From the NCBI GenBank assembly GCA_903857685.1, contig CAIOFO010000010.1, positions 1-64,000 of the forward strand: DNA of 64,000 bases, read 5' to 3'. The position numbers and the translations under genes are program-made. The notes below the pieces were generated by a model. The model was not told the DNA's origin and ran no database searches. It saw only the letters and a list, made by a program, of their open reading frames with translations. Every line of letters starts with the position of its first letter. The first letter of the stretch is position 1. Source of the stretch: an uncultured Alphaproteobacteria bacterium (GTDB taxonomy: Bacteria > Pseudomonadota > Alphaproteobacteria > Micropepsales > Micropepsaceae). This document shows positions 47,430 through 62,715 of this stretch, in pieces.

Positions 47430-47497
47430 GGATTGATCCAGATCAAGACTGAAACCTGCGGCAACACGCCCCAATTCCTCTTGATCTGGATCAATCC
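47430..47497. promoter_or_regulatory. Two identical FNR/FixK boxes (47433-47446 TTGATCCAGATCAA; 47481-47494 TTGATCTGGATCAA) in a 19-bp perfect inverted repeat
   Basis: GGATTGATCCAGATCAAGA (47430-47448) and its exact reverse complement TCTTGATCTGGATCAATCC (47479-47497), between divergent hemN and ompW-like genes. Confidence 0.9.
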
Positions 47498-48491: not shown

Positions 48492-48505
48492 TTGATCGCA
48501 ATCAA
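48492..48505. promoter_or_regulatory. FNR/FixK box TTGATCGCAATCAA upstream of ccoN
   Basis: Perfect TTGAT-N4-ATCAA about 92 bp upstream of the ccoN start. Confidence 0.88.
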
Positions 48506-48596: not shown

Positions 48597-50234
48597 ATGC
48601 AAGTGCAAACTGAAACGCCGTGGCGGCTGGATCACATCATCATTCCCCTGATACTTTTTCTGGGGTTTTGCGCCGGCATGGCGGAATGGGCGCGCTCGCC
48701 CGACTGGCGCATGGTCGTCCAGGGCTGGACCTTCGCAGGCTGCATGGCCGTGATCGGCGCCTGGTATATGTGGATGTATTCCGGCCGGGTGCCTGACGAC
48801 GAAAGCGGCCCCTATTGCGACACGGTCGTCAAGGCCGGTGTCGTCGCCGCGATGTTCTGGGGCATTGCCGGCATGCTGGTTGGCGTCATCATCGCGCTGC
48901 AGCTGTCTTTCCCCAACCTGTTCTATTTTCCCGACCTGGCCTGGACGAATTTCGGCCGCCTGCGGCCGCTGCATACGTCGGCGGTGATTTTCGCCTTCGG
49001 CGGAAATGTGCTGATCGCCACCTCTTTTTATGTGGTGCAGCGGACCTGCAAGGCGCGGCTGTGGGGTGGTTCGCTGCCCTGGTTCGTGTTCTGGGGCTAC
49101 AATACCTTCATCCTTCTGGCGGGCACCGGCTATTTGCTGGGAATCACCCAGGCGCGGGAATATGCCGAGCCGGAATGGTATGCCGATATCTGGCTCACCA
49201 TCGTGTGGGTCTGCTACCTGCTGACATTCCTGGGCGCGATCATGAAGCGCAAGGAGCCGCATATCTATGTCGCGAACTGGTTCTATCTCGCCTTCATCGT
49301 GACCATCGCGGTCCTGCATATCGTCAACAATCTGGCGATGCCGGTATCGCTGCTCGGCTCCAAGAGCTACTCGCTGTTTTCGGGCGTCCAGGATGCCCTG
49401 ATCCAGTGGTGGTATGGGCATAACGCAGTCGGCTTCTTCCTGACGGCCGGCTTTCTGGGAATTGTCTATTACTTCATTCCCAAGCGGGCGCAGCGTCCGG
49501 TCTACTCCTACCGCCTCTCCATCATCCATTTTTGGAGTCTGATTTTCATCTATATCTGGGCGGGCCCGCATCATCTTCTCTTCACCGCCCTTCCGGAATG
49601 GGTCCAGACGCTGGGCATGACCTTTTCGATCATTTTGTGGATGCCCAGTTGGGGCGGCATGATCAACGGGCTGATGACCCTGTCGGGTGCCTGGGACAAG
49701 TTGCGCACCGATCCGGTCCTGCGCATGCTGGTGGTCTCGGTGGCGTTCTACGGCATGGCGACCTTTGAAGGTCCGGTCATGTCGATAAAGACCGTCAACG
49801 CGCTTTCGCATTACACCAACTGGACGATCGGGCATGTCCATTCCGGCGCTCTGGGCTGGGTGGGCTATGTCAGTTTCGGCGCGATTTACTGTCTTGTGCC
49901 CTGGCTGTGGAAGAAGAAGCTCTATTCCAACGCCCTGGTGGAATGGCATTTCTGGATTTCGACCCTGGGCATCGTCCTTTACATCACTTCGATGTGGGTT
50001 GCCGGCATCATGCAGGGCCTGATGTGGCGGGCTTATAATGACTACGGCTTCCTGGAATATTCCTTCGTCGAGGTCGTGCAGGCCATGCACCCCTATTACA
50101 TTATCCGCGCCATCGGCGGGGCGATGTACCTGGCGGGCACACTGGTCATGGCCTTCAACCTGTGGCGGACGGTGAGCAACGGCGCTCCGGAAATCTCTCT
50201 TCCCAAAGACATGATCGCGGAGCCTGCCCAATGA
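48597..50234 (+). CDS. ccoN: cbb3-type cytochrome c oxidase subunit I
   Basis: [92 protein letters not shown]. Confidence 0.97.
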
Positions 50235-50959
50235 TCCATGGTTGGTTGGAACGTAACTCAATCCTGCTGCTGATCGGCATCCTGCTCGTGGTCGCCGTCG
50301 GCGGCGCCGTCGAGATCACGCCGCTGTTCTGGGTCAACGGCACCGTCGAGCATATCAACGGCATGCGCCCCTACACGCCGCTGGAGCTGGAAGGCCGCAA
50401 CATCTACACAAGGGAAGGCTGCTATCTGTGCCACAGCCAGCAGATCCGCACCCTGCGCGACGAGGTCGAACGCTATGGCCATTACAGCCTGGCCGCGGAA
50501 AGCGAGTATGATCATCCCTTCCAGTGGGGCTCGGAACGCACCGGTCCCGACCTGGCGCGTGTCGGCGCCAAATATTCCGACGAATGGCACCGGGCGCACC
50601 TGGCCGATCCGCGTTCGGTGGTGCCGGAATCCATCATGCCGCCCTACAAGTTCCTGGCGGAAACGCCGCTGGATTACCGCGACATCCGCGCCATTCTGGA
50701 AGCCAACAGCGATGTCGGCGTGCCTTACAGCAAGGACCAGATCGCCCATGCCAAGGAAGACCTGGAAGCACAGGGAGATCCGAACGCGGAGGGTGTCGGC
50801 GCTTTCCAGAAACGCTATCCCAAGGCGCAGGCGCGCGATTTCGACGGCAATCCGAATCAGATCACGGAAGCCGACGCGCTGATCGCCTATCTGCAAATGC
50901 TGGGTACGCTGGTGGATTTCAAAACCTACCAGGCCGATGCCCCGGAAAACCGGAGATAG
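50231..50959 (+). CDS. ccoO: cbb3-type cytochrome c oxidase subunit II
   Basis: [44 protein letters not shown]; monoheme CYLCH. Confidence 0.97.
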
Positions 50960-50961
50960 CA

Positions 50962-51126
50962 ATGGAAACCTGGACCTTTGATGAAGTTCTGGCCTTCGCC
51001 CAAAGCTGGGGCGCGGTCTATTTCACCCTGATGTTCGTGGTGGTGCTGATTTACGCTTTCTGGCCGAAGAACCAGCCCGGCTTCCAGCGCGCCAAGAACA
51101 TTCCGCTTGATGATGAAGGTGCATGA
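50962..51126 (+). CDS. ccoQ: cbb3-type oxidase subunit CcoQ
   Basis: Small ORF METWTFDEVLAFAQSWGAVYFTLMFVVVLIYAFWPKNQPGFQRAKNIPLDDEGA between ccoO and ccoP. Confidence 0.9.
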   Translation: METWTFDEVLAFAQSWGAVYFTLMFVVVLIYAFWPKNQPGFQRAKNIPLDDEGA

Positions 51127-51998
51127 TGTCGGATAAGAAGAATGAGATTGACGATGTTTCCGGTACCGAAACGACCGGTCACGAATGGGACGGCATCAAG
51201 GAACTGAATACGCCGCTGCCGCGCTGGTGGATCGGCATCTTTTATGCCTGCATTGTCTGGGCCATCGGCTACTGGATCGTGATGCCGGCGTGGCCGACCC
51301 TGAACGGCTATACCCATGGCTGGTTCAATCATTCCCAGCGGGATGACGTCATGGCGCAGGTGGGTCTCCTCAAGGCGGCGCGCGCCTCGAAGGAGCGTGA
51401 ACTCAGCAATGCGACCCTGGCGCAGATCCAGTCCAATCCCGAACTGCTGCAATTCGCCCAGGCCGAGGGCAAGTCGGCCTTTGGCGACAATTGCGCGCCT
51501 TGCCATGGCTCCGGCGGCCAGGGCGCTCATGGTTATCCCAATTTGAACGACGACGTCTGGCTGTGGGGCGGTTCGCTGGCTGATATCCAGCACACCATCA
51601 CGGTGGGCGTGCGCTCGACGGCAGCGGAAACCCGCCAGTCGCAAATGCCGTCCTTTGGCCGTGATGCCATGCTCAAGCCGGCGCAGGTCGACGATCTGAC
51701 GGAATATGTCGTTCATCTCTCCGGACGTCCGGCCAATGGAGCGGCGGTGACGCGGGCGACCAAGTTGTTCGCGGACAATTGCGCCATGTGTCACGGGCCC
51801 GAAGGCAAAGGCAACCGGACCATGGGTGCGCCGAATCTCACGGACAATGATTGGCTCTATGGGCCCAGGCGCGAGGATATCCATGACCAGATCTGGAACG
51901 GCCATGGCGGCGTCATGCCGACCTGGGGCGGCCGGTTGACGCCCGAAACTATCAAGGCGCTTGCGGTCTATGTGCACGGCCTTGGCGGCGGTGAATAG
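51123..51998 (+). CDS. ccoP: cbb3-type cytochrome c oxidase subunit III (diheme)
   Basis: HEWDGIKELNTPLPRWWIGIFYACIVWAIGYWIVMPAWP; two heme motifs CAPCH and CAMCH. Confidence 0.96.
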   Translation: MMSDKKNEIDDVSGTETTGHEWDGIKELNTPLPRWWIGIFYACIVWAIGYWIVMPAWPTLNGYTHGWFNHSQRDDVMAQVGLLKAARASKERELSNATLAQIQSNPELLQFAQAEGKSAFGDNCAPCHGSGGQGAHGYPNLNDDVWLWGGSLADIQHTITVGVRSTAAETRQSQMPSFGRDAMLKPAQVDDLTEYVVHLSGRPANGAAVTRATKLFADNCAMCHGPEGKGNRTMGAPNLTDNDWLYGPRREDIHDQIWNGHGGVMPTWGGRLTPETIKALAVYVHGLGGGE

Positions 51999-52009
51999 GC
52001 GATGGCCTC

Positions 52010-53524
52010 ATGACCGCCTTGCCGAATATCGACCTGCGCCAGGCGCAAACCGTCCCGGTGATGGCGGCTGATGGTGTGACGCGGTCGGAGGCCGAGGCCA
52101 GCAACAGCGCGGCGAATCGCAAGCTCTACAAGTCCCGGGTGCCGATCTATCCCAAGGAGATGGACGGTATTTATCGCTACATCAAATGGGCGATGATGGC
52201 CTTCACGCTCAGCATCTATTACCTGGTTCCCTGGCTGCGCTGGGACAGGGGCGCCGGTGCGCCGCACCAGGCCGTCCTGGTCGATATGACCCATGAAAGG
52301 CTCTATTTCTTCTTCATCGAGATCTGGCCGCAGGAAGTCTACTACATCACCGGCCTGCTCATACTTTCGGCGGTAGCGCTGTTCCTGATCAATGCGCTGT
52401 TCGGGCGGTTGTGGTGCGGCTATTCCTGTCCGCAGACCGTCTGGACGGACCTGTTCATCTGGGTCGAAACCAAGATCGAGGGTGACCGCGGCGCCCGCAT
52501 CCGCCTGGCGGCGGAGCCCTGGACCTTGCGGAAAGTCGCCAAGCGCGTCTCCAAGCACGCGATCTGGCTGGGTTTCGCGGTGGCGACCGGCGGCGCCTGG
52601 GTATTCTATTTCAACGACGCTCCGACACTGCTGCACCAACTGATGACCGGAGCTGCGAGCTTCGGCGTCTATTCGGCAATCGCGATACTGGCTTTCACCA
52701 CCTACACGCTGGGCGGCCTGATGCGCGAACAGGTTTGCACTTATATGTGCCCCTGGCCGCGCATCCAGGCGGCGATGACCGACAATGAAGCGCTATCGGT
52801 GACTTATCGCCGTGACCGCGGCGAACCGCGCGGCGCCCACAGGAAAGGTGAGCCCTGGGACAATCGCGGCAGTTGCATTGACTGCAATCAGTGTGTCGCG
52901 GCCTGTCCGATGGGCATTGATATCCGGGATGGCTCCCAGCTCGAATGTATCAATTGCGCCCTATGCGTCGATGCCTGCGATGAAGTCATGCTGCGCATTG
53001 GCCAGCCCAAGGGCCTGATCGCCTTTGATACCGAAGCCAATGTGCTGCGGCGGCTGAAGGGCGACAAGCCCCGCTTCCGCTTCCTGCGCCCGCGCACGAT
53101 GCTTTATTCCGCCATCCTGGTGGTGGTCAGCGCCATCATGCTGTTCAGCCTGGTGGATCGCCGCACCGTGGACCTGGATGTGCTGCGGGACCGCAATCCC
53201 AACTTCGTCACCCTGGCCGATGGCGCAGTGCGCAACGGCTATACCCTCAAGCTGATGAACCGCGACCAGGCTCCGCGCGTGCTGAACCTGGCCGTGTCCG
53301 GCATCGCAGCCCGCGAAATCAATATTATCGGCGTGGGGGTTGTCGTGCCGCCGGTGCCGCTGGGCGTTGATCCCGACAGGGTCCGCACCTTGCGCCTTTT
53401 GATCACCGTGGATCGCAGCCGGGTAAGACCGGGCACGCAGGCAGTGACATTTTCCCTGACTGATCCGGCGCGGGGGGAGACGCGCACCGTCGAAACCGTA
53501 TTCGTATCGGGAGACCAGAAATGA
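52010..53524 (+). CDS. ccoG: Cytochrome c oxidase accessory protein CcoG (FixG), 4Fe-4S
   Basis: GRLWCGYSCPQTVWTDLFIWVE; CIDCNQCVAACPMGIDIRDGSQLECINCALCVDACDEVM. Confidence 0.96.
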   Translation: MTALPNIDLRQAQTVPVMAADGVTRSEAEASNSAANRKLYKSRVPIYPKEMDGIYRYIKWAMMAFTLSIYYLVPWLRWDRGAGAPHQAVLVDMTHERLYFFFIEIWPQEVYYITGLLILSAVALFLINALFGRLWCGYSCPQTVWTDLFIWVETKIEGDRGARIRLAAEPWTLRKVAKRVSKHAIWLGFAVATGGAWVFYFNDAPTLLHQLMTGAASFGVYSAIAILAFTTYTLGGLMREQVCTYMCPWPRIQAAMTDNEALSVTYRRDRGEPRGAHRKGEPWDNRGSCIDCNQCVAACPMGIDIRDGSQLECINCALCVDACDEVMLRIGQPKGLIAFDTEANVLRRLKGDKPRFRFLRPRTMLYSAILVVVSAIMLFSLVDRRTVDLDVLRDRNPNFVTLADGAVRNGYTLKLMNRDQAPRVLNLAVSGIAAREINIIGVGVVVPPVPLGVDPDRVRTLRLLITVDRSRVRPGTQAVTFSLTDPARGETRTVETVFVSGDQK

Positions 53525-54000
53525 CCAGGACACTGACCGGCCGCGGCGTGCTGCTCTGGCTGACCGCCTTTTTCGGCATCATTTTTGCAACCAATTTCTA
53601 TTTCGTCACCGCCGCGATCAAGACTTTCAGCGGCGAAGATGTGGGTGATCCCTATATGCTGGGCGTCGAGTACAACAGCACCCTTGGCCGGCGCGCCGAA
53701 CAGCAGAAGCTGGGCTGGACATCCACCATTTCCGCAGAACGCCTGCCTGGCGGCCCGGTGCGCGTCAGCGTCACCTTGCGCCATGCCGATGGCGCGCCCG
53801 AGACGGATTCGACATTGCAGGGCAGGCTGCGGCATCCCAGCAATGGTGGATTGGACCGCGCCCTGACCTTCAGGCAGACGGCGCCGGGACTCTTCCAGGC
53901 GGATTTGTCGGGCGTAAGCTCGGGCAACTGGGATGTCCTGGTCAACACTCCAGAACAGGACGCGCCCTTTGAGGCAACGCGCCGCGTGTGGCTGCGGTGA
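53521..54000 (+). CDS. ccoH: FixH family protein (CcoH)
   Basis: Position between ccoG and ccoI; N-terminal TM; ATNFYFVTAAIKTFSGEDVGDPYMLGVEYN. Confidence 0.9.
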   Translation: MTRTLTGRGVLLWLTAFFGIIFATNFYFVTAAIKTFSGEDVGDPYMLGVEYNSTLGRRAEQQKLGWTSTISAERLPGGPVRVSVTLRHADGAPETDSTLQGRLRHPSNGGLDRALTFRQTAPGLFQADLSGVSSGNWDVLVNTPEQDAPFEATRRVWLR

Positions 54001-56174
54001 ACCTGGCGCTTCGCTCGGCCGACATGGCCGATGACCTGTCGCGCCATCTTCTCCCGGGCGACGATGGCAATTGCCAGTTCGAAATTGCGGTCAAGGGCGC
54101 GCGCTGTGCAAATTGCATCGCCAAGATTGAAACCGGAGTCCGCGCCCTAGCTGGCGTGAGCGAAGCTCGCCTCAACCTTTCCACGGGAAAGCTCACCGTC
54201 GGCTGGAAGCGCGGAGCCGCTTCGCCCCATGCCGTGCTGCGCCGGATTCGCGATCTGGGTTACGAGGCCCAGCCCTTCGATGCCGCCGCGACATTGTCCA
54301 GCGGCGAGCAGGAAGGGCGCCTGCTACTGCGCTGCATGGCCATAGCGGGTTTCGGCACCGTATTCATCATGGGTCTTGCCGACGCAGTCTGGTATGGCGG
54401 CGGCGACATGGAAGCGGCCACGCGGCAGAGCCTTTTCTGGCTGGCCGCCGCCGTGGCCATTCCGATAACATTTTATGCCGGCCAGCCCTTTTTCCTCTCG
54501 GCATTTCGCGCCCTGCGCCGCGGCAACGCCAATATGGATGTGCCGATCAGCGCCGCGCTGATCCTGTCGCTGGGCCTCAGTCTCTATCAGACAGTCCAGC
54601 ATGGAACGCACAATTACTTCGATGCCGCGGTGATGCTGACCTTCCTGCTGCTGATCGGCCGCTATCTCGACTACAGGCTCCGCAGCAGGGCGCAGGGCGC
54701 GGCCCGGCACCTTCTGGCCCTGCAATCGCTGTTGGCGCGCCGCATCCGGCCGGATGGCGATCTCGAAACCGTGGCGGCGCGCGACCTGGCGCCCGGCGAC
54801 CGGTTGCTGCTGGCGAGCGGCGACCGCGTACCGGTGAACGCAGTCCTGGAAGAGCATGCCACCGAAGCCGATATGTCCCTGGTCACCGGCGAAAGCATGC
54901 CGCAACCTTTCGCTCCCGGCGAGGCGATCTATGCCGGAGCTGTCATCACAGGCGCGCCTGCGATCCTGCGCGCCACCGCGCGGGTCGAGGATTCGCTGGT
55001 CGCCGACCTGGCGCGGCTGCTGGAAGCCGGACAGCAATCGCGCAGCCTCTATGTCAAGCTGGCGGACCGCGCCGCCCGCGCCTATGTGCCGCTGGTCTGC
55101 GGCCTGGCGCTTGCGGTCTTCGTCGGCTGGCTGGGCATGGGCGCCTCCATCGCGGTCGCCGCGACCAACGCCATCACCGTGCTGATCATCACCTGTCCCT
55201 GCGCCCTGGGCCTTGCCGTTCCCGCGGTGCAGATCGTGGCGACCGGCCGGCTGTTCCAGCGCGGCGTCTTCGTCAAATCCGGTGACGCCTTGGAGCGGCT
55301 GGCGGAAATCGACCTGGCGGTGTTCGACAAGACGGGCACCCTGACAACCGGTGTCCCGGCACTGCGCAATGCGGCGGATGTTTCCCCCGCCATCCTGGAG
55401 CAGGCCGCCCAACTGGCGCGGGCAAGCCGGCATCCGCTGGCCCAGGCGCTGGCGGCAGCGGCGGGTCCGGGGCCGGTGGCGCCGGGCGTGCGCGAAACCA
55501 TCGGCATGGGACTCGAAACGGCCGATTCGGCCCGCAAACTGGGCAATGCCGCCTGGTGCGGCCTGGATCCCGGCGCACACAAGGGCGGCATGTGGTTCTG
55601 CCGCGATGGCGCGGCGCCCGTTCATTTTGTCTTTCATGAAACCATCCGGCCCGAGGCCGGCGCCGTGGTTGCGGCGCTGCTGAGACGCGGAATCTCCGTC
55701 GAGATGCTGAGCGGCGATCACCCGATGGCTGCCGCGGAAATCGCAGCGCGCGCCGGAATCGCGCAATGGCACGCTGGCGTCGGCGCGCGGGAGAAAGCGG
55801 CGCGCCTGCAGGCGTTGAAGGCGGAAGGCCGGCATGTGCTGATGGTGGGAGACGGCATCAATGACGCCGCCGCCATGGGTCTGGCGCATGTTTCGATCGC
55901 GCCAGGCTCCGCCGCAGATGTCAGCCAGCAGGCGTCAGACATGGTGCTGCGCGGCCAGGACTTGACGCCGCTGGTGGAGGCGCTGGACGTCGCGCGCAAG
56001 GCGCGCCGGCTGGTGCTGCAGAATTTTGCGCTCGCCCTTCTTTACAATCTCACCGCCATCCCCCTGGCGGCCCTGGGCTTCGTCACGCCCCTGATCGCGG
56101 CGGCCACCATGGCTGGCTCCTCCCTGCTGGTCACGCTCAATGCGCTGCGCCTGAGCCTTGCGGGCAAACCATGA
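53997..56174 (+). CDS. ccoI: cbb3-oxidase-associated heavy-metal (Cu) P-type ATPase CcoI/FixI
   Basis: GARCANCIAKIETGV metal-binding domain, CPCALGLAVP, FDKTGTLTTG, VGDGINDAAAMGLAHVSIAPGS. Confidence 0.94.
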   Translation: MNLALRSADMADDLSRHLLPGDDGNCQFEIAVKGARCANCIAKIETGVRALAGVSEARLNLSTGKLTVGWKRGAASPHAVLRRIRDLGYEAQPFDAAATLSSGEQEGRLLLRCMAIAGFGTVFIMGLADAVWYGGGDMEAATRQSLFWLAAAVAIPITFYAGQPFFLSAFRALRRGNANMDVPISAALILSLGLSLYQTVQHGTHNYFDAAVMLTFLLLIGRYLDYRLRSRAQGAARHLLALQSLLARRIRPDGDLETVAARDLAPGDRLLLASGDRVPVNAVLEEHATEADMSLVTGESMPQPFAPGEAIYAGAVITGAPAILRATARVEDSLVADLARLLEAGQQSRSLYVKLADRAARAYVPLVCGLALAVFVGWLGMGASIAVAATNAITVLIITCPCALGLAVPAVQIVATGRLFQRGVFVKSGDALERLAEIDLAVFDKTGTLTTGVPALRNAADVSPAILEQAAQLARASRHPLAQALAAAAGPGPVAPGVRETIGMGLETADSARKLGNAAWCGLDPGAHKGGMWFCRDGAAPVHFVFHETIRPEAGAVVAALLRRGISVEMLSGDHPMAAAEIAARAGIAQWHAGVGAREKAARLQALKAEGRHVLMVGDGINDAAAMGLAHVSIAPGSAADVSQQASDMVLRGQDLTPLVEALDVARKARRLVLQNFALALLYNLTAIPLAALGFVTPLIAAATMAGSSLLVTLNALRLSLAGKP

Positions 56175-56867: not shown

Positions 56868-56881
56868 TTGACCTGGATCAA
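56868..56881. promoter_or_regulatory. FNR/FixK-like box TTGACCTGGATCAA
   Basis: One mismatch from TTGAT-N4-ATCAA; upstream of the cytochrome c gene. Confidence 0.7.
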
Positions 56882-58170: not shown

Positions 58171-59049
58171 TCACGCCACCAGATCGGCGATGCCGGCGGC
58201 GATGATGCCGCTCACGTCAATTGCGGCGGCCGGCCCAGGAACCGTGTTGGTGGTGACCAGGCCGCAATCCAGGATCGGCTGGGCGCCTTCACTCAATATG
58301 CCATGGATGCCGATCGCTACCGGCGGCAAGGCGCTCAGCGGCCCCAGCAGGCGCATCGCTTCGGCCATGGTGGCGCCGGTTGAAACAATGTCGTCCAGCA
58401 GAACCGGGGTGGCGCCGTCCGGAATCTTCAGATCATGCGGCGACGATTGCACGGTCCGGTCGCCGAGCCTTTGCTTGGACAGGACCGCGAATTCCGCGCC
58501 GCAGGCGCCGGCCACCGCGCCCACCCATTGCCGGCTTTCCGCATCCGGTCCGATCAGGTATGGCCGCAGGACATGAGCCTTGATCCAGTCGGCGATGGCG
58601 GGCCCGGCATGAAAAGCGCGGGCGGGAATGGAATAGATTTCGTCAAGCGACTTGTAGCGGTGCAGATGCGGATCCACCGTCGCCAGCCAGTCGCAAGCAT
58701 GCGAAAGCAGCGCGGCGAAGCTGCGGGATGTCACCGTTTCACCCGGCTGGAAGCTGCGGTCCTGCCGCATATAGCAGAGATAGGGCGCTACCAGACCGAC
58801 CTTGCGCGCGCCCATCTGGCGCGCACCGTCGGCGGCGAAAAGCAGCGGCGCGATCTTTCCGTCCGGCCACGCCAGCGTGCAGACCAGCACGATGCTGCGC
58901 CCGGCAAGGTCATCCTGGAAACGCAGATGGGATTCGCCATCGGGAAAAGCGCTCAGCGCCAGGTTGCCGGTGCTGCCGCCGCACAGCGTTGCCAGTCGCG
59001 ACGCCATCGCCTCATTTCCAGGCAGGGCAATGAAAAGCGGCGCGCTCAT
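58171..59049 (-). CDS. Ribose-phosphate diphosphokinase (PRPP synthetase)-like protein
   Basis: FPDGESHLRF, APYLCYMRQDRSFQPGETVTSRSFA, PRPP-loop VLLDDIVSTGATMAEAM. Confidence 0.88.
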   Translation of the reverse strand: MSAPLFIALPGNEAMASRLATLCGGSTGNLALSAFPDGESHLRFQDDLAGRSIVLVCTLAWPDGKIAPLLFAADGARQMGARKVGLVAPYLCYMRQDRSFQPGETVTSRSFAALLSHACDWLATVDPHLHRYKSLDEIYSIPARAFHAGPAIADWIKAHVLRPYLIGPDAESRQWVGAVAGACGAEFAVLSKQRLGDRTVQSSPHDLKIPDGATPVLLDDIVSTGATMAEAMRLLGPLSALPPVAIGIHGILSEGAQPILDCGLVTTNTVPGPAAAIDVSGIIAAGIADLVA

Positions 59050-60545
59050 GTGACGCCGAAAATGTCAGGATTGGCCTCGGCATAGGAAAGGGCATAGGCG
59101 AGCTCGCCTTCCGCCTCCGCATGCAGGGTGCAAAGCGCTGTCCCGGCCGCGATCTGGTCACCCAGCCGGACGTGCAATTCGATTCCGGCGGCCTTGGCGT
59201 ATGGCGCACCGGCAAGCTTGGCGAGCCGCGCGATGCGGCGATTGTCTATGCTTTCAAGAACGCCGGCATGGCTGGCCGCCAGAGCCCTGCGGTGCCGAGC
59301 CTGTGGCGGAACGCGCATGCCACCTTGCGCCGCGCAGATGCGCTGAAATTTGCTCCAGGCGCGGCCGTCATCCAGCGCCGTGCTGGCCAATATTGTGCCC
59401 TGTCCGGCGGGGGCCTTGCCGCAAAGTTCCAGCAGGCCGCCCGCCAGCGCCAGGGCACGCGCGCGCAGATCCTGCGGCGCATCCGGCCGGCCCTGCAGGA
59501 CCGCCAGCACGTCGCGGGCCTCCAGCGCCGGACCGATGCCGCGGCCGATGGGCTGGTTGCCGTCGCCCTGCATCACCTTGATGCGGATGCCGAAAGCCTC
59601 GGCCACAGCGCTCAGGCCGGCAGTAAGAGAATCAGCCGCCGCGGCGCCGCGGACCTTGGCGGTTGGTCCCACCGGCATGTCAATCACCAGATGGGTGGCG
59701 CCCGCCGCGATTTTCTTGGAGAGAATCGAGGCGATCATCTGGCCTTCGCTGTCGATATCCAGGGCATGTTCGATCCGAATGAGAATATCGTCGGCCGGGC
59801 TGAGCTGCATCGCGCCGCCCCAGACGATGCAGCCGCCTTCCTGCCCGACGACCGCGCGCAATGCCTGTTCATCCAGCGCCACGGGCGCCAGCGTCTCCAT
59901 TGTATCGGCGGTGCCGGCCGGCGAGGTGATGGCGCGCGAGGATGTCTTGGGCATCATCAGCCCCAGGGCGGCGCAGAGCGACACCACGATGGGCGTGGTG
60001 CGGTTTCCCGGCAATCCGCCCACCGAATGCTTGTCGGCGATGACTTGCCCATGCCAATCAAGACGCTTGCCCGCGCCCACCATGGCGCGGGTGAGAAAAC
60101 ATACCTCGTCCTGCGCCAGGGGCTTGGTGGCGCAGGCGGTGATGAAAGAAGTGACCTCCAGGGCGGAATAACGCCCCGCCACGATATCGGGGATGATGCG
60201 CCCGAAAGCCCGTTCGTCCAGCGCATGACCAAAAATCCGGCTTCGCACCAGGCCGAGCGATTCCACCGGCGGCGCATGGCGCGCGGTGATGAGATCGCCC
60301 TCCGCGACGCCCAGCGCCTGCCAGGTGGCGTCGGAAAGCCCGGCTTCGACGCAGTTCAAAAAATCGGATTCCACCTGATAGAGCGTAGCGATGGCGTGCC
60401 GGTCGCCCGCCGAAAGCAGGATGCGATTATGGGAGGTAAAGCCCTCCGAGCGGCAGACCGAGCAGTCCTTGCGCAGGAAGACGACAGTCTCGGCATGGGT
60501 ATCTATGCCCAGCAGGCGTGCCCGCAACCCGTGCGCCCCTGTCAT
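59046..60545 (-). CDS. Thymidine phosphorylase family protein (archaeal AMP-phosphorylase-like)
   Basis: ADKHSVGGLPGNRTTPIVVSLCAALGLMMPKTSSRAITSPAGTADTMETLAPV; extended about 80-aa N-terminal domain; 500 aa. Confidence 0.88.
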   Translation of the reverse strand: MTGAHGLRARLLGIDTHAETVVFLRKDCSVCRSEGFTSHNRILLSAGDRHAIATLYQVESDFLNCVEAGLSDATWQALGVAEGDLITARHAPPVESLGLVRSRIFGHALDERAFGRIIPDIVAGRYSALEVTSFITACATKPLAQDEVCFLTRAMVGAGKRLDWHGQVIADKHSVGGLPGNRTTPIVVSLCAALGLMMPKTSSRAITSPAGTADTMETLAPVALDEQALRAVVGQEGGCIVWGGAMQLSPADDILIRIEHALDIDSEGQMIASILSKKIAAGATHLVIDMPVGPTAKVRGAAAADSLTAGLSAVAEAFGIRIKVMQGDGNQPIGRGIGPALEARDVLAVLQGRPDAPQDLRARALALAGGLLELCGKAPAGQGTILASTALDDGRAWSKFQRICAAQGGMRVPPQARHRRALAASHAGVLESIDNRRIARLAKLAGAPYAKAAGIELHVRLGDQIAAGTALCTLHAEAEGELAYALSYAEANPDIFGVT

Positions 60546-61909
60546 GGAAGAATTACGCTCTGACCATGGTCCGGCACGGCGCAATTCCAGCCGAATTTTT
60601 CTTCCAGCGCATGGCGCAGCCCGTCCGCGCCCTGCGGTTCGCCATGCACGATGAAGGCCGTGCGCGGCGGCGTCTTGAATCCACCGGCCCAGCGCAGCAG
60701 CTCCTCCTGGTCGGCATGGGCTGACAGCATGGACAAATTATGGACTTCGGCGCGAACTGGGATGTACCGGCCATGCATCTTGATGTTCGGGGCGCCCGCG
60801 ACCATGGCGGCGCCGCGCGTGCCGCCGGCCTGGAAGCCGGTGAACAATATCACATTCTTGGGATCGGGGGCGTAATGCTCCAGGTGATGCAGCACCCGTC
60901 CGCCCGTCGCCATGCCGCTGGCGGATATGATCACCTTGGCCATGGCGCTGGCGGTCAGGTCCCTGGATTCCTCTCCGGTGTGGACGTAATGCACATCGCC
61001 ATCCAGCAGCGCCATCCCGGCCGCGTCCAGTTTCTGATCGGCGGCATGACGGCGGAATATGTCCGTTGCGTCGATCGCCATGGGACTGTCGAGGAAAACC
61101 GGCAATAGCTTTGGCAGTTTGCCCGCCGCCTTCAGCCGGCCCAAATGATACAACAGGCATTGCGCCCGCCCAACCGCGAAGGCGGGCACCACCACCGTGC
61201 CGCCGCGATGGACGGTCTTGTTGATAATGCCGGCCAGAACGTCTTCCACGTCGCTGCGGTCATGGCGGCGATCGCCATAGGTCGATTCCATCAGCAGATA
61301 GTCCGCCGGCTCCGGCGTTTCGGGACCGAGCATCAACGGGTCGTCATAGCGACCGATATCGCCGGAGAAGGCGATTGTCTTGCCGTCCCAATCCATCAGC
61401 GCGGAAGCGGCGCCCAGAATATGCCCGGCGCGCATATAGCGCAGCACTGCACCGCCCGGAAGGGTCACATCTTCATGGAATGATACGGGCCTCAGATATT
61501 TGAGCGCCTTGATGGCGTCACCCTCGGTGTAAAGCGGCAGGGCGGGCTTGTGCTTGGAAAATTGATGCCGGTTTGCCTCGGCTGCGTCGCGCTCCTGCAG
61601 ATGGCCGGAATCCGGCAATAGAATGCCGCACAGATCGGCGGTGCCTTCGGTGCAAAAGATCGGCCCGCGAAACCCGTTCTTCACCAGCAGCGGCAGATAG
61701 CCGGAATGGTCGAGATGGGCGTGGGTCAGGACGACCGCCGCAATGCTGGCGGGCGCGACGGGCGGCGGCGCCCAGTTGCGCAGGCGCAGCGCCTTGAAGC
61801 CCTGGAACAGACCGCAATCCACCAGGATGCGTTGGTCCCCGCGCTGCAAAAGATATTTGGAGCCGGTGACGGTACCGGCGCCGCCGAGAAAGGTGAGGTT
61901 AAGGCTCAT
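60542..61909 (-). CDS. MBL-fold metallo-hydrolase with beta-CASP/RMMBL (RNase J/CPSF-like) domains
   Basis: LTFLGGAGTVTGSKYLLQ, LTHAHLDHSGYLPLLVKNGFRGPIFCTEGT, LMESTYGDRRHD, VHNLSMLSAHADQEELLRWAGGF, AFIVHGEPQGADGLRHALEEKFGW. Confidence 0.92.
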   Translation of the reverse strand: MSLNLTFLGGAGTVTGSKYLLQRGDQRILVDCGLFQGFKALRLRNWAPPPVAPASIAAVVLTHAHLDHSGYLPLLVKNGFRGPIFCTEGTADLCGILLPDSGHLQERDAAEANRHQFSKHKPALPLYTEGDAIKALKYLRPVSFHEDVTLPGGAVLRYMRAGHILGAASALMDWDGKTIAFSGDIGRYDDPLMLGPETPEPADYLLMESTYGDRRHDRSDVEDVLAGIINKTVHRGGTVVVPAFAVGRAQCLLYHLGRLKAAGKLPKLLPVFLDSPMAIDATDIFRRHAADQKLDAAGMALLDGDVHYVHTGEESRDLTASAMAKVIISASGMATGGRVLHHLEHYAPDPKNVILFTGFQAGGTRGAAMVAGAPNIKMHGRYIPVRAEVHNLSMLSAHADQEELLRWAGGFKTPPRTAFIVHGEPQGADGLRHALEEKFGWNCAVPDHGQSVILP

Positions 61910-61968: not shown

Positions 61969-61982
61969 TTGATCTGGCGCAA
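61969..61982. promoter_or_regulatory. Degenerate FNR/FixK-like box TTGATCTGGCGCAA
   Basis: Left half perfect, right half CGCAA; located between the divergent MBL and BON-domain genes. Confidence 0.5.
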
Positions 61983-62064: not shown

Positions 62065-62715
62065 ATGAGCGACATGTTCCTTCGCCAGAGCATCCTCGAC
62101 GAACTGGATTTCGAGCCGAGCGTGAATGCGATCCATATCGGGGTTGCCGTGGACAATGGCGTGGTGATGCTCAGCGGCATGGTTGGCTCCTACGCCGAGA
62201 AGCTGGCGGTTGAGCAGGCGATCCGCCGCGTCAAGGGCGTGACGGCCATCGCCGAGGAAATCAAGGTTCGTTATGCCGAGGACAAGAAGACTTCGGACGC
62301 CGAGATCGCGCAGCGTGCAATCAATATCCTTCACTGGAATGCGGTGGTGCCCAAGGACAGCATTCAGATCAAGGTGCAGGATGGCTGGGTCGCATTATCG
62401 GGAAAGGTGGACTGGCATTATCAGCGCGCCGCCGCCGAAAACGCCGTCCGCAAGCTGTCCGGCGTGGTGGGCGTGGTCAACAGCATCGCGGTCAAGCCGC
62501 AGGTGCATGCCGACGACGTCAAACGCAGGATCGAGGACGCTCTCAAGCGCCATGCCGGCGTGGAGGCGCAGCGCATCAACGTCAATGTGCGCGATGGCGG
62601 CCATGTCACGCTGGACGGTTATGTCCATGACTGGCGCGAGCGTCAGGCCGCCGAATATGCCGCCTGGTCCGCGCCAGGCGTCCAAGGCGTCGAGGATCGC
62701 CTGACAATTTCCTGA
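62065..62715 (+). CDS. Triple BON-domain protein
   Basis: Three BON-like repeats (IHIGVAVDNGVVMLSGMVGSYAEKLAVEQAIRRVKGVTAIAEEI; IQIKVQDGWVALSGKVDWHYQRAAAENAVRKLSGVVGVVNSI; INVNVRDGGHVTLDGYVHDW). Confidence 0.93.
   Translation: MSDMFLRQSILDELDFEPSVNAIHIGVAVDNGVVMLSGMVGSYAEKLAVEQAIRRVKGVTAIAEEIKVRYAEDKKTSDAEIAQRAINILHWNAVVPKDSIQIKVQDGWVALSGKVDWHYQRAAAENAVRKLSGVVGVVNSIAVKPQVHADDVKRRIEDALKRHAGVEAQRINVNVRDGGHVTLDGYVHDWRERQAAEYAAWSAPGVQGVEDRLTIS

Follow-up and report, generated by a model that had tools for sequence, protein, structure and literature searches.

Three overlapping genes on the minus strand of a 64,000-nucleotide stretch of an uncultured Alphaproteobacteria bacterium (contig CAIOFO010000010.1, positions 1 to 64,000; hereafter, the window) encode, in order of transcription, a metallo-beta-lactamase (MBL)/beta-CASP RNase homologue, a homologue of the archaeal nucleoside monophosphate (NMP) phosphorylases, and a protein resembling phosphoribosyl diphosphate (PRPP) synthetase. 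We propose that this trio serves ribonucleotide catabolism when oxygen is limiting, as an operon through which NMPs would yield ribose-1,5-bisphosphate (R15P), then ribose 5-phosphate (R5P) and, through phosphoketolase, acetyl-phosphate and ATP; on this reading as a whole our judgement is evenly balanced. The genes and their junctions are:

58171 to 59049, minus strand: PRPP-synthetase-like protein (PRK07199), 292 amino acids, with the diphosphate loop GPD-A-ES at residues 167-172
59046 to 60545, minus strand: archaeal-type NMP (AMP) phosphorylase homologue (PRK04350/TIGR02645), 499 amino acids, with an N-terminal domain
60542 to 61909, minus strand: MBL/beta-CASP RNase homologue (TTHA0252-like), 455 amino acids, HxHxDH motif present
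60542 to 60545, minus strand: 4-bp ATGA stop/start overlap, MBL gene to phosphorylase gene
59046 to 59049, minus strand: 4-bp ATGA stop/start overlap, phosphorylase gene to PRPP-synthetase-like gene

The initial annotation had described three overlapping minus-strand genes, and open reading frames with a 4-bp overlap at both junctions were found where it had placed them. For the phosphorylase, the likely start is the ATG at position 60545, within the MBL stop codon overlap, giving the 499-residue product; a TTG start, which merely yields the longest open frame, was rejected in its favor.

The arrangement is not due to chance, because PRK07199 genes lie beside nearly all PRK04350 genes in a sample of 299 genomes of the phylum. 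Phosphorylase matches above the cut-off numbered 37, in 35 of the 299 genomes, and a PRPP-synthetase-like gene was located within 5 kb of 35 of these 37 matches (within 200 bp of 33). Comparison therefore establishes the linkage, and with it the co-conservation of the neighborhood that had been set beforehand as a check on the initial annotation. Of the two phosphorylases with no PRPP-synthetase-like gene nearby, one was a match at a contig edge. One phosphorylase copy (G255:C142:10073-10987) carries an internal TGA, its PRPP-synthetase-like partner was not found, and it is probably decaying. Relatives occur in Proteobacteria, Bacteroidota, Acidobacteriota, Gemmatimonadota, and Verrucomicrobiota.

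The middle protein is well supported, by profile scores and by a structural model, as an NMP phosphorylase homologue of the archaeal type and not the thymidine phosphorylase DeoA, in agreement with the initial annotation, which had pointed to its extended N-terminus. It scored 649.5 bits against PRK04350 (cut-off 434) and 562.5 bits against TIGR02645 (cut-off 434.6), whereas it failed both DeoA models (TIGR02643, T_phosphoryl, 136.7 bits against a cut-off of 570.7; PRK05820, 192.9 bits against a cut-off of 269). The AlphaFold model, with a predicted local distance difference test score (pLDDT) of 91, superposed on the full-length Thermococcus AMP phosphorylase 4ga5 with a template modeling (TM) score of 0.92/0.93 over 500 columns, compared with 0.68-0.74 for thymidine/pyrimidine phosphorylases. 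In this superposition the window protein possessed both the phosphorylase core and the N-terminal domain that DeoA lacks, the strands of the latter being modeled at a pLDDT of about 90. A GG-x-PGN-[RK]-T insert and an SSRAITS segment are common to this protein and the Thermococcus enzyme, and differ in the thymidine/pyrimidine phosphorylases. By homology, it would phosphorolyze NMPs. A candidate for a separate DeoA in the genome was rejected: that match covers profile positions 99-233 only, at 34 bits, and is probably TrpD-like.

The downstream protein scored 333.5 bits against the PRK07199 ribose-phosphate diphosphokinase model (cut-off 322), and its structural model (pLDDT 94) has the PRPP-synthetase fold (TM score 0.86 to 3mbi). 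We aligned 64 PRK07199 proteins (63 relatives and that of the window) with 13 canonical PRPP synthetases (Prs). Residues F35, D37, E39, R95, Q96, D97, H128, D169, K192, R194, D219, D220, and T227 are identical to those of canonical Prs, with D219 present in 98% of the alignment; from general knowledge of Prs structures, we take this set to bind nucleotide and R5P and to serve in catalysis. Two places differ consistently: (i) the diphosphate loop, which reads PD-x-ES in 64 of 64 PRK07199 proteins and PD-x-G-G in the 13 canonical Prs, so that the window protein has E171-S172 in place of G-G, and (ii) an HLHR that follows the metal-binding His in the PRK07199 proteins. In the solved archaeal and human Prs structures that were aligned, the loop is PD-x-G[GA] and the HLHR is absent. 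Both altered places should adjoin the position of the transferred diphosphate. Because they differ consistently while the substrate and catalytic residues stay, we propose that this enzyme works with a single phosphate, in the form of R15P, and not with a diphosphate, in the form of PRPP.

The same residues can be read another way. In NMP recycling, the phosphorylase would make R15P and the PRPP-synthetase-like protein, acting either as an R15P kinase or as an ordinary PRPP synthetase, would provide PRPP from which nucleotides are remade, a PhnN-like role. The family name and fold fit such a role, as do the retained nucleotide and catalytic residues and the lack of PhnN in the genome, where the best match to a PhnN-type R15P kinase reached 43 bits against a cut-off of 156. 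We nevertheless consider recycling rather unlikely: a housekeeping Prs with a normal SPDVGG loop is separately encoded in the same genome (at C63), the diphosphate loop has been rebuilt in all aligned PRK07199 members, and phosphoketolase and acetate kinase, rather than phosphoribosyltransferases, make up the operon partners described below.

Its domains (Lactamase_B, Beta-Casp, and RMMBL), its resemblance to the Thermus RNase TTHA0252 (2dkf, E=1e-73), and its zinc motif HxHxDH, kept as THAHLDH, mark the upstream protein as a beta-CASP RNase homologue, in line with the RNase-like character first ascribed to it. It also scored 351 bits against a type VII CRISPR Cas14 model, far under the cut-off of 800, which indicates family resemblance only.

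The genes that accompany the module suggest what its product might feed. We gathered 85 loci from genomes and plasmids, which formed 66 groups at 85% phosphorylase identity; some linked sets (L084, L087, and L090-L093) seem to derive from a single mobile island, and the count by group corrects for such copies. The PRPP-synthetase-like gene was present in 57 of the 66 groups and the MBL gene in 44; fewer groups had a phosphoketolase-like gene (16), acetate kinase (12), or type II GAPDH (six). Cluster identities were checked by Pfam for phosphoketolase and acetate kinase; the GAPDH label comes from plasmid annotation, and one member matched nothing in Pfam at the chosen threshold. The phosphoketolase-like gene directly adjoins module genes in 16 loci, and in L069 and L082 the phosphorylase, acetate kinase, phosphoketolase-like, and PRPP-synthetase-like genes run in series with 4-bp overlaps, the MBL gene lying upstream. 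A membrane protein of about 218 amino acids with no Pfam match, possibly isoprenylcysteine-methyltransferase-like, is encoded near the module at L069:3051-3704 and in 21 other loci (13 of 66 groups).

Physical linkage is a stronger signal than co-occurrence across genomes, and is mostly to a divergent phosphoketolase-like family. Canonical phosphoketolase co-occurred with the phosphorylase only moderately across the phylum (9/35 genomes with it and 29/264 without, by hand counts; p=0.02, a value that overstates independence given the uneven relatedness of the genomes). The divergent proteins linked in operons (L069:8426-10837, L082:12615-15026, L038:11224-13593, and L102:6210-8606) are named 'xylulose 5-phosphate 3-epimerase' in RefSeq despite XFP domain matches; members of the family are about 23-26% identical to the phosphoketolase of the window genome and mostly 53-62% identical to that of L069. 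The family is not specific to the module: a full-length member was present in 11 sampled genomes, of which three carry the phosphorylase, and in those three all four copies are in the operon.

These partners bear on the direction of the pathway. Were it to run synthetically, the PRPP-synthetase-like protein would make R15P from R5P and ADP or ATP, and the phosphorylase would add free bases to give NMPs, a base salvage free of PRPP. Phosphorolysis can proceed in either direction, and PMC9700705 describes an ability of the archaeal enzyme to form NMPs from R15P; this scheme leaves both the RNase and the phosphoketolase, acetate kinase, and GAPDH partners unexplained, and we judge it improbable.

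The module is common on plasmids of Sphingobium, Rhizobium, Cupriavidus, and Variovorax, where heavy-metal ATPases, PPK2, and universal stress genes accompany it (H1-H60, e.g., L038 and L041). Because plasmid carriage with metal and stress genes is so frequent, the module probably travels horizontally. The same copies could be taken to mean that the genes are part of a general stress island and share no pathway, the phosphorylase being an ordinary thymidine/uridine nucleoside phosphorylase, as its database name 'thymidine phosphorylase' would have it. The full-length AMP phosphorylase architecture, the low DeoA scores, and the adjacency of the genes across several phyla oppose this explanation; we assign it a still smaller share of probability than the synthetic scheme.

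The genome that contains the window was searched family by family with profiles. On contig C10, of which the window makes up positions 1-64000, this genome encodes phosphate acetyltransferase, acetate kinase, and a canonical phosphoketolase at 72.1-85.7 kb, past the end of the window and 10-24 kb beyond the trio:

C10, within 72084-73187: phosphate acetyltransferase (Pta)
C10, within 72866-74278: acetate kinase (AckA), the only match in the genome
C10, 80853-82406, minus strand: cytochrome bd oxidase subunit I
C10, 83300-85693: canonical phosphoketolase, 1453 bits, the only match in the genome

RuBisCO (PF00016) was found nowhere in the genome, and the one candidate for R15P isomerase was rejected, the sole IF-2B-family protein being MtnA (TIGR00511, 147.7 bits against a cut-off of 314). 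The absence of both enzymes, originally remarked on for the window, thus extends to the whole genome.

The trio had been assigned to a low-oxygen block, and its surroundings confirm this. The block contains ccoN (762 bits), FixP, CcoG, FixH, a Cu-ATPase, HemN, and OmpW, along with four perfect FNR/FixK boxes (TTGAT-N4-ATCAA) at 47433, 47481, 48492, and 56333 and one with a single mismatch at 56868. These boxes cluster in the vicinity of HemN/OmpW and ccoN, and of genes for a potassium-channel-like protein and a diheme cytochrome c. The features nearest to the argument are:

48597 to 56174, plus strand: cbb3 oxidase operon ccoN...ccoI, for low-oxygen respiration, with a perfect FNR box ahead of it at 48492-48505
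61969 to 61982, no strand assigned: predicted FNR/FixK-like box TTGATCTGGCGCAA, two mismatches, located between the divergent genes, some 60 bp ahead of the MBL start
62065 to 62715, plus strand: BON-domain (OsmY-like) gene, divergent from the MBL gene and sharing its intergenic region

At the density seen in shuffled sequence, a two-mismatch box would fall in this intergenic region of ~155 bp by chance about 5% of the time. FixK2 boxes of the TTGATCTGGCGCAA form, TTGATCCAGCGCAA and TTGACCTCACGCAA, are listed in PMC9104804.

Published data establish low-oxygen regulation for a counterpart of the trio in Bradyrhizobium diazoefficiens, a correspondence drawn from annotation and operon make-up, not from sequence alignment. 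According to PMC6515984, bll3117 (thymidine phosphorylase family), bll3116 (ribose-phosphate pyrophosphokinase), and bll3115 (MBL) are induced at 0.5% O2, with log2 fold changes in protein of 2.1, 4.4, and 2.9 and with transcripts up 5.1-, 7.7-, and 15.4-fold, respectively. PMC9104804 gives a FixK2 box at -74 for the predicted operon bll3117-bll3116-bll3115 and, on deletion of fixK2, a decrease of 6.6-fold in bll3117 transcripts and 30.6-fold in those of bll3115; the same FixK2 table includes the phosphoketolase bll2518 and the acetate kinase bll2517 (10-fold). The sections of the two papers covered here propose no function for bll3117-bll3115. The change in expression with oxygen that the initial annotation had called for is therefore on record for this counterpart. 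An RNase and a nucleotide-cleaving enzyme, often borne on plasmids, could also make up an anti-phage or toxic nucleotide-depletion system. The published low-oxygen regulon that includes the counterpart, the metabolic partners, and the failure of PADLOC models to match any of the three proteins, by which a known defense system was ruled out, make such a role highly improbable.

Returning to ribonucleotide catabolism, we envisage the following route: (i) the beta-CASP RNase would help to break RNA into 5'-NMPs; (ii) the phosphorylase, by homology, would convert NMP and inorganic phosphate to free base and R15P; (iii) the PRPP-synthetase-like protein would convert R15P to R5P, most likely by moving the phosphate at the anomeric carbon onto AMP or ADP, which amounts to the reverse PRPP-synthetase reaction with one phosphate instead of two; (iv) a standard isomerase and epimerase, which we assume, would turn R5P into xylulose 5-phosphate; (v) phosphoketolase would yield acetyl-phosphate and glyceraldehyde-3-phosphate; and (vi) acetate kinase and lower glycolysis would form ATP without oxygen. 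The initial annotation had suggested RNA/nucleotide salvage under oxygen limitation. The linkage of the trio and the low-oxygen expression of its counterpart agree with that suggestion, but because the operon partners are phosphoketolase-like, acetate kinase, and type II GAPDH genes, catabolism with a gain of ATP is favored over salvage, and the oxygen link is not universal. More tentatively, as a possibility that we would not call probable, PRK07199 may represent a new enzyme built on the fold of PRPP synthetase, an R15P:AMP (or ADP) phosphotransferase that stores the energy of the NMP glycosidic bond as ADP/ATP and that, with NMP phosphorylase, phosphoketolase, and acetate kinase, would constitute an undescribed bacterial fermentation of RNA ribose when respiration fails.

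Several points weigh against this route. Moving the phosphate on C1 of R15P to AMP is slightly endergonic, and a downstream pull would be needed. The phosphorylase scored 452 bits against the AMP_phos equivalog TIGR03327, under its cut-off of 535, and is therefore termed a homologue and not a proven AMP phosphorylase. About a third of loci lack an MBL gene close to the pair, so the NMPs need not come from RNA. The putative phosphoketolases linked in operons belong to the divergent family. FNR-type boxes (up to two mismatches) were detected near the operon start in a minority of loci (8/66; 12%, compared with 3% in control stretches), and universal FNR control of the module was rejected on this ground. 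Because few homologous operons have such a box and many copies reside on metal-resistance plasmids, we hold firmly that the low-oxygen reading applies to the surroundings of the window and to Bradyrhizobium, not to all carriers. Finally, a literature search, which took in no preprints and few subscription papers, returned no assay or biochemistry of any member and no functional study of the module.

If the proposal is right, (i) RNA would be an internal energy store for bacteria that lose oxygen, (ii) families in five phyla labeled 'thymidine phosphorylase' and 'ribose-phosphate pyrophosphokinase' would gain a function, and (iii) archaeal R15P chemistry would occur in ordinary bacteria without RuBisCO, with a new reaction predicted on a very well-studied fold.

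Among known systems, the archaeal NMP shunt, or pentose bisphosphate pathway (Thermococcus kodakarensis AMP phosphorylase TK0352, R15P isomerase, and form III RuBisCO), resembles the trio in its NMP phosphorylase with an N-terminal domain, in the fold of that enzyme, and in the predicted product, R15P. The isomerase and RuBisCO, neither of which was found in the window genome, would be replaced here by the PRPP-synthetase-like protein and phosphoketolase. The haloarchaeal non-carboxylating pentose bisphosphate pathway (PMC9700705) likewise catabolizes ribose through R15P without RuBisCO, as proposed here, but isomerizes R15P to ribulose bisphosphate, on which a phosphatase and an aldolase then act; the window genome yielded no R15P isomerase. 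The archaeal-type Prs (1u9y, 3mbi) have the fold and the substrate and catalytic residues of the PRPP-synthetase-like protein, and differ from it in the loop (PD-x-G[GA] in place of PD-x-ES) and in lacking the HLHR insert. Bradyrhizobium bll3117-bll3116-bll3115, judged orthologous from annotation, has the same three annotated products in a predicted operon that is induced by microoxia and FixK2 dependent; its order is phosphorylase, PRPP synthetase, MBL, whereas that of the window is MBL, phosphorylase, PRPP-synthetase-like. In lactobacilli, the ribose of nucleosides is thought to feed phosphoketolase and acetate kinase (PMC3928093), passing through acetyl-phosphate to ATP as in the proposed route; lactobacilli enter via nucleosides and R5P, whereas entry here would be via NMPs and R15P with a dedicated PRPP-synthetase-like enzyme. 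The new parts would be the entry from NMPs and the step from R15P to R5P, the lower half of the route having its precedent in the lactobacilli.

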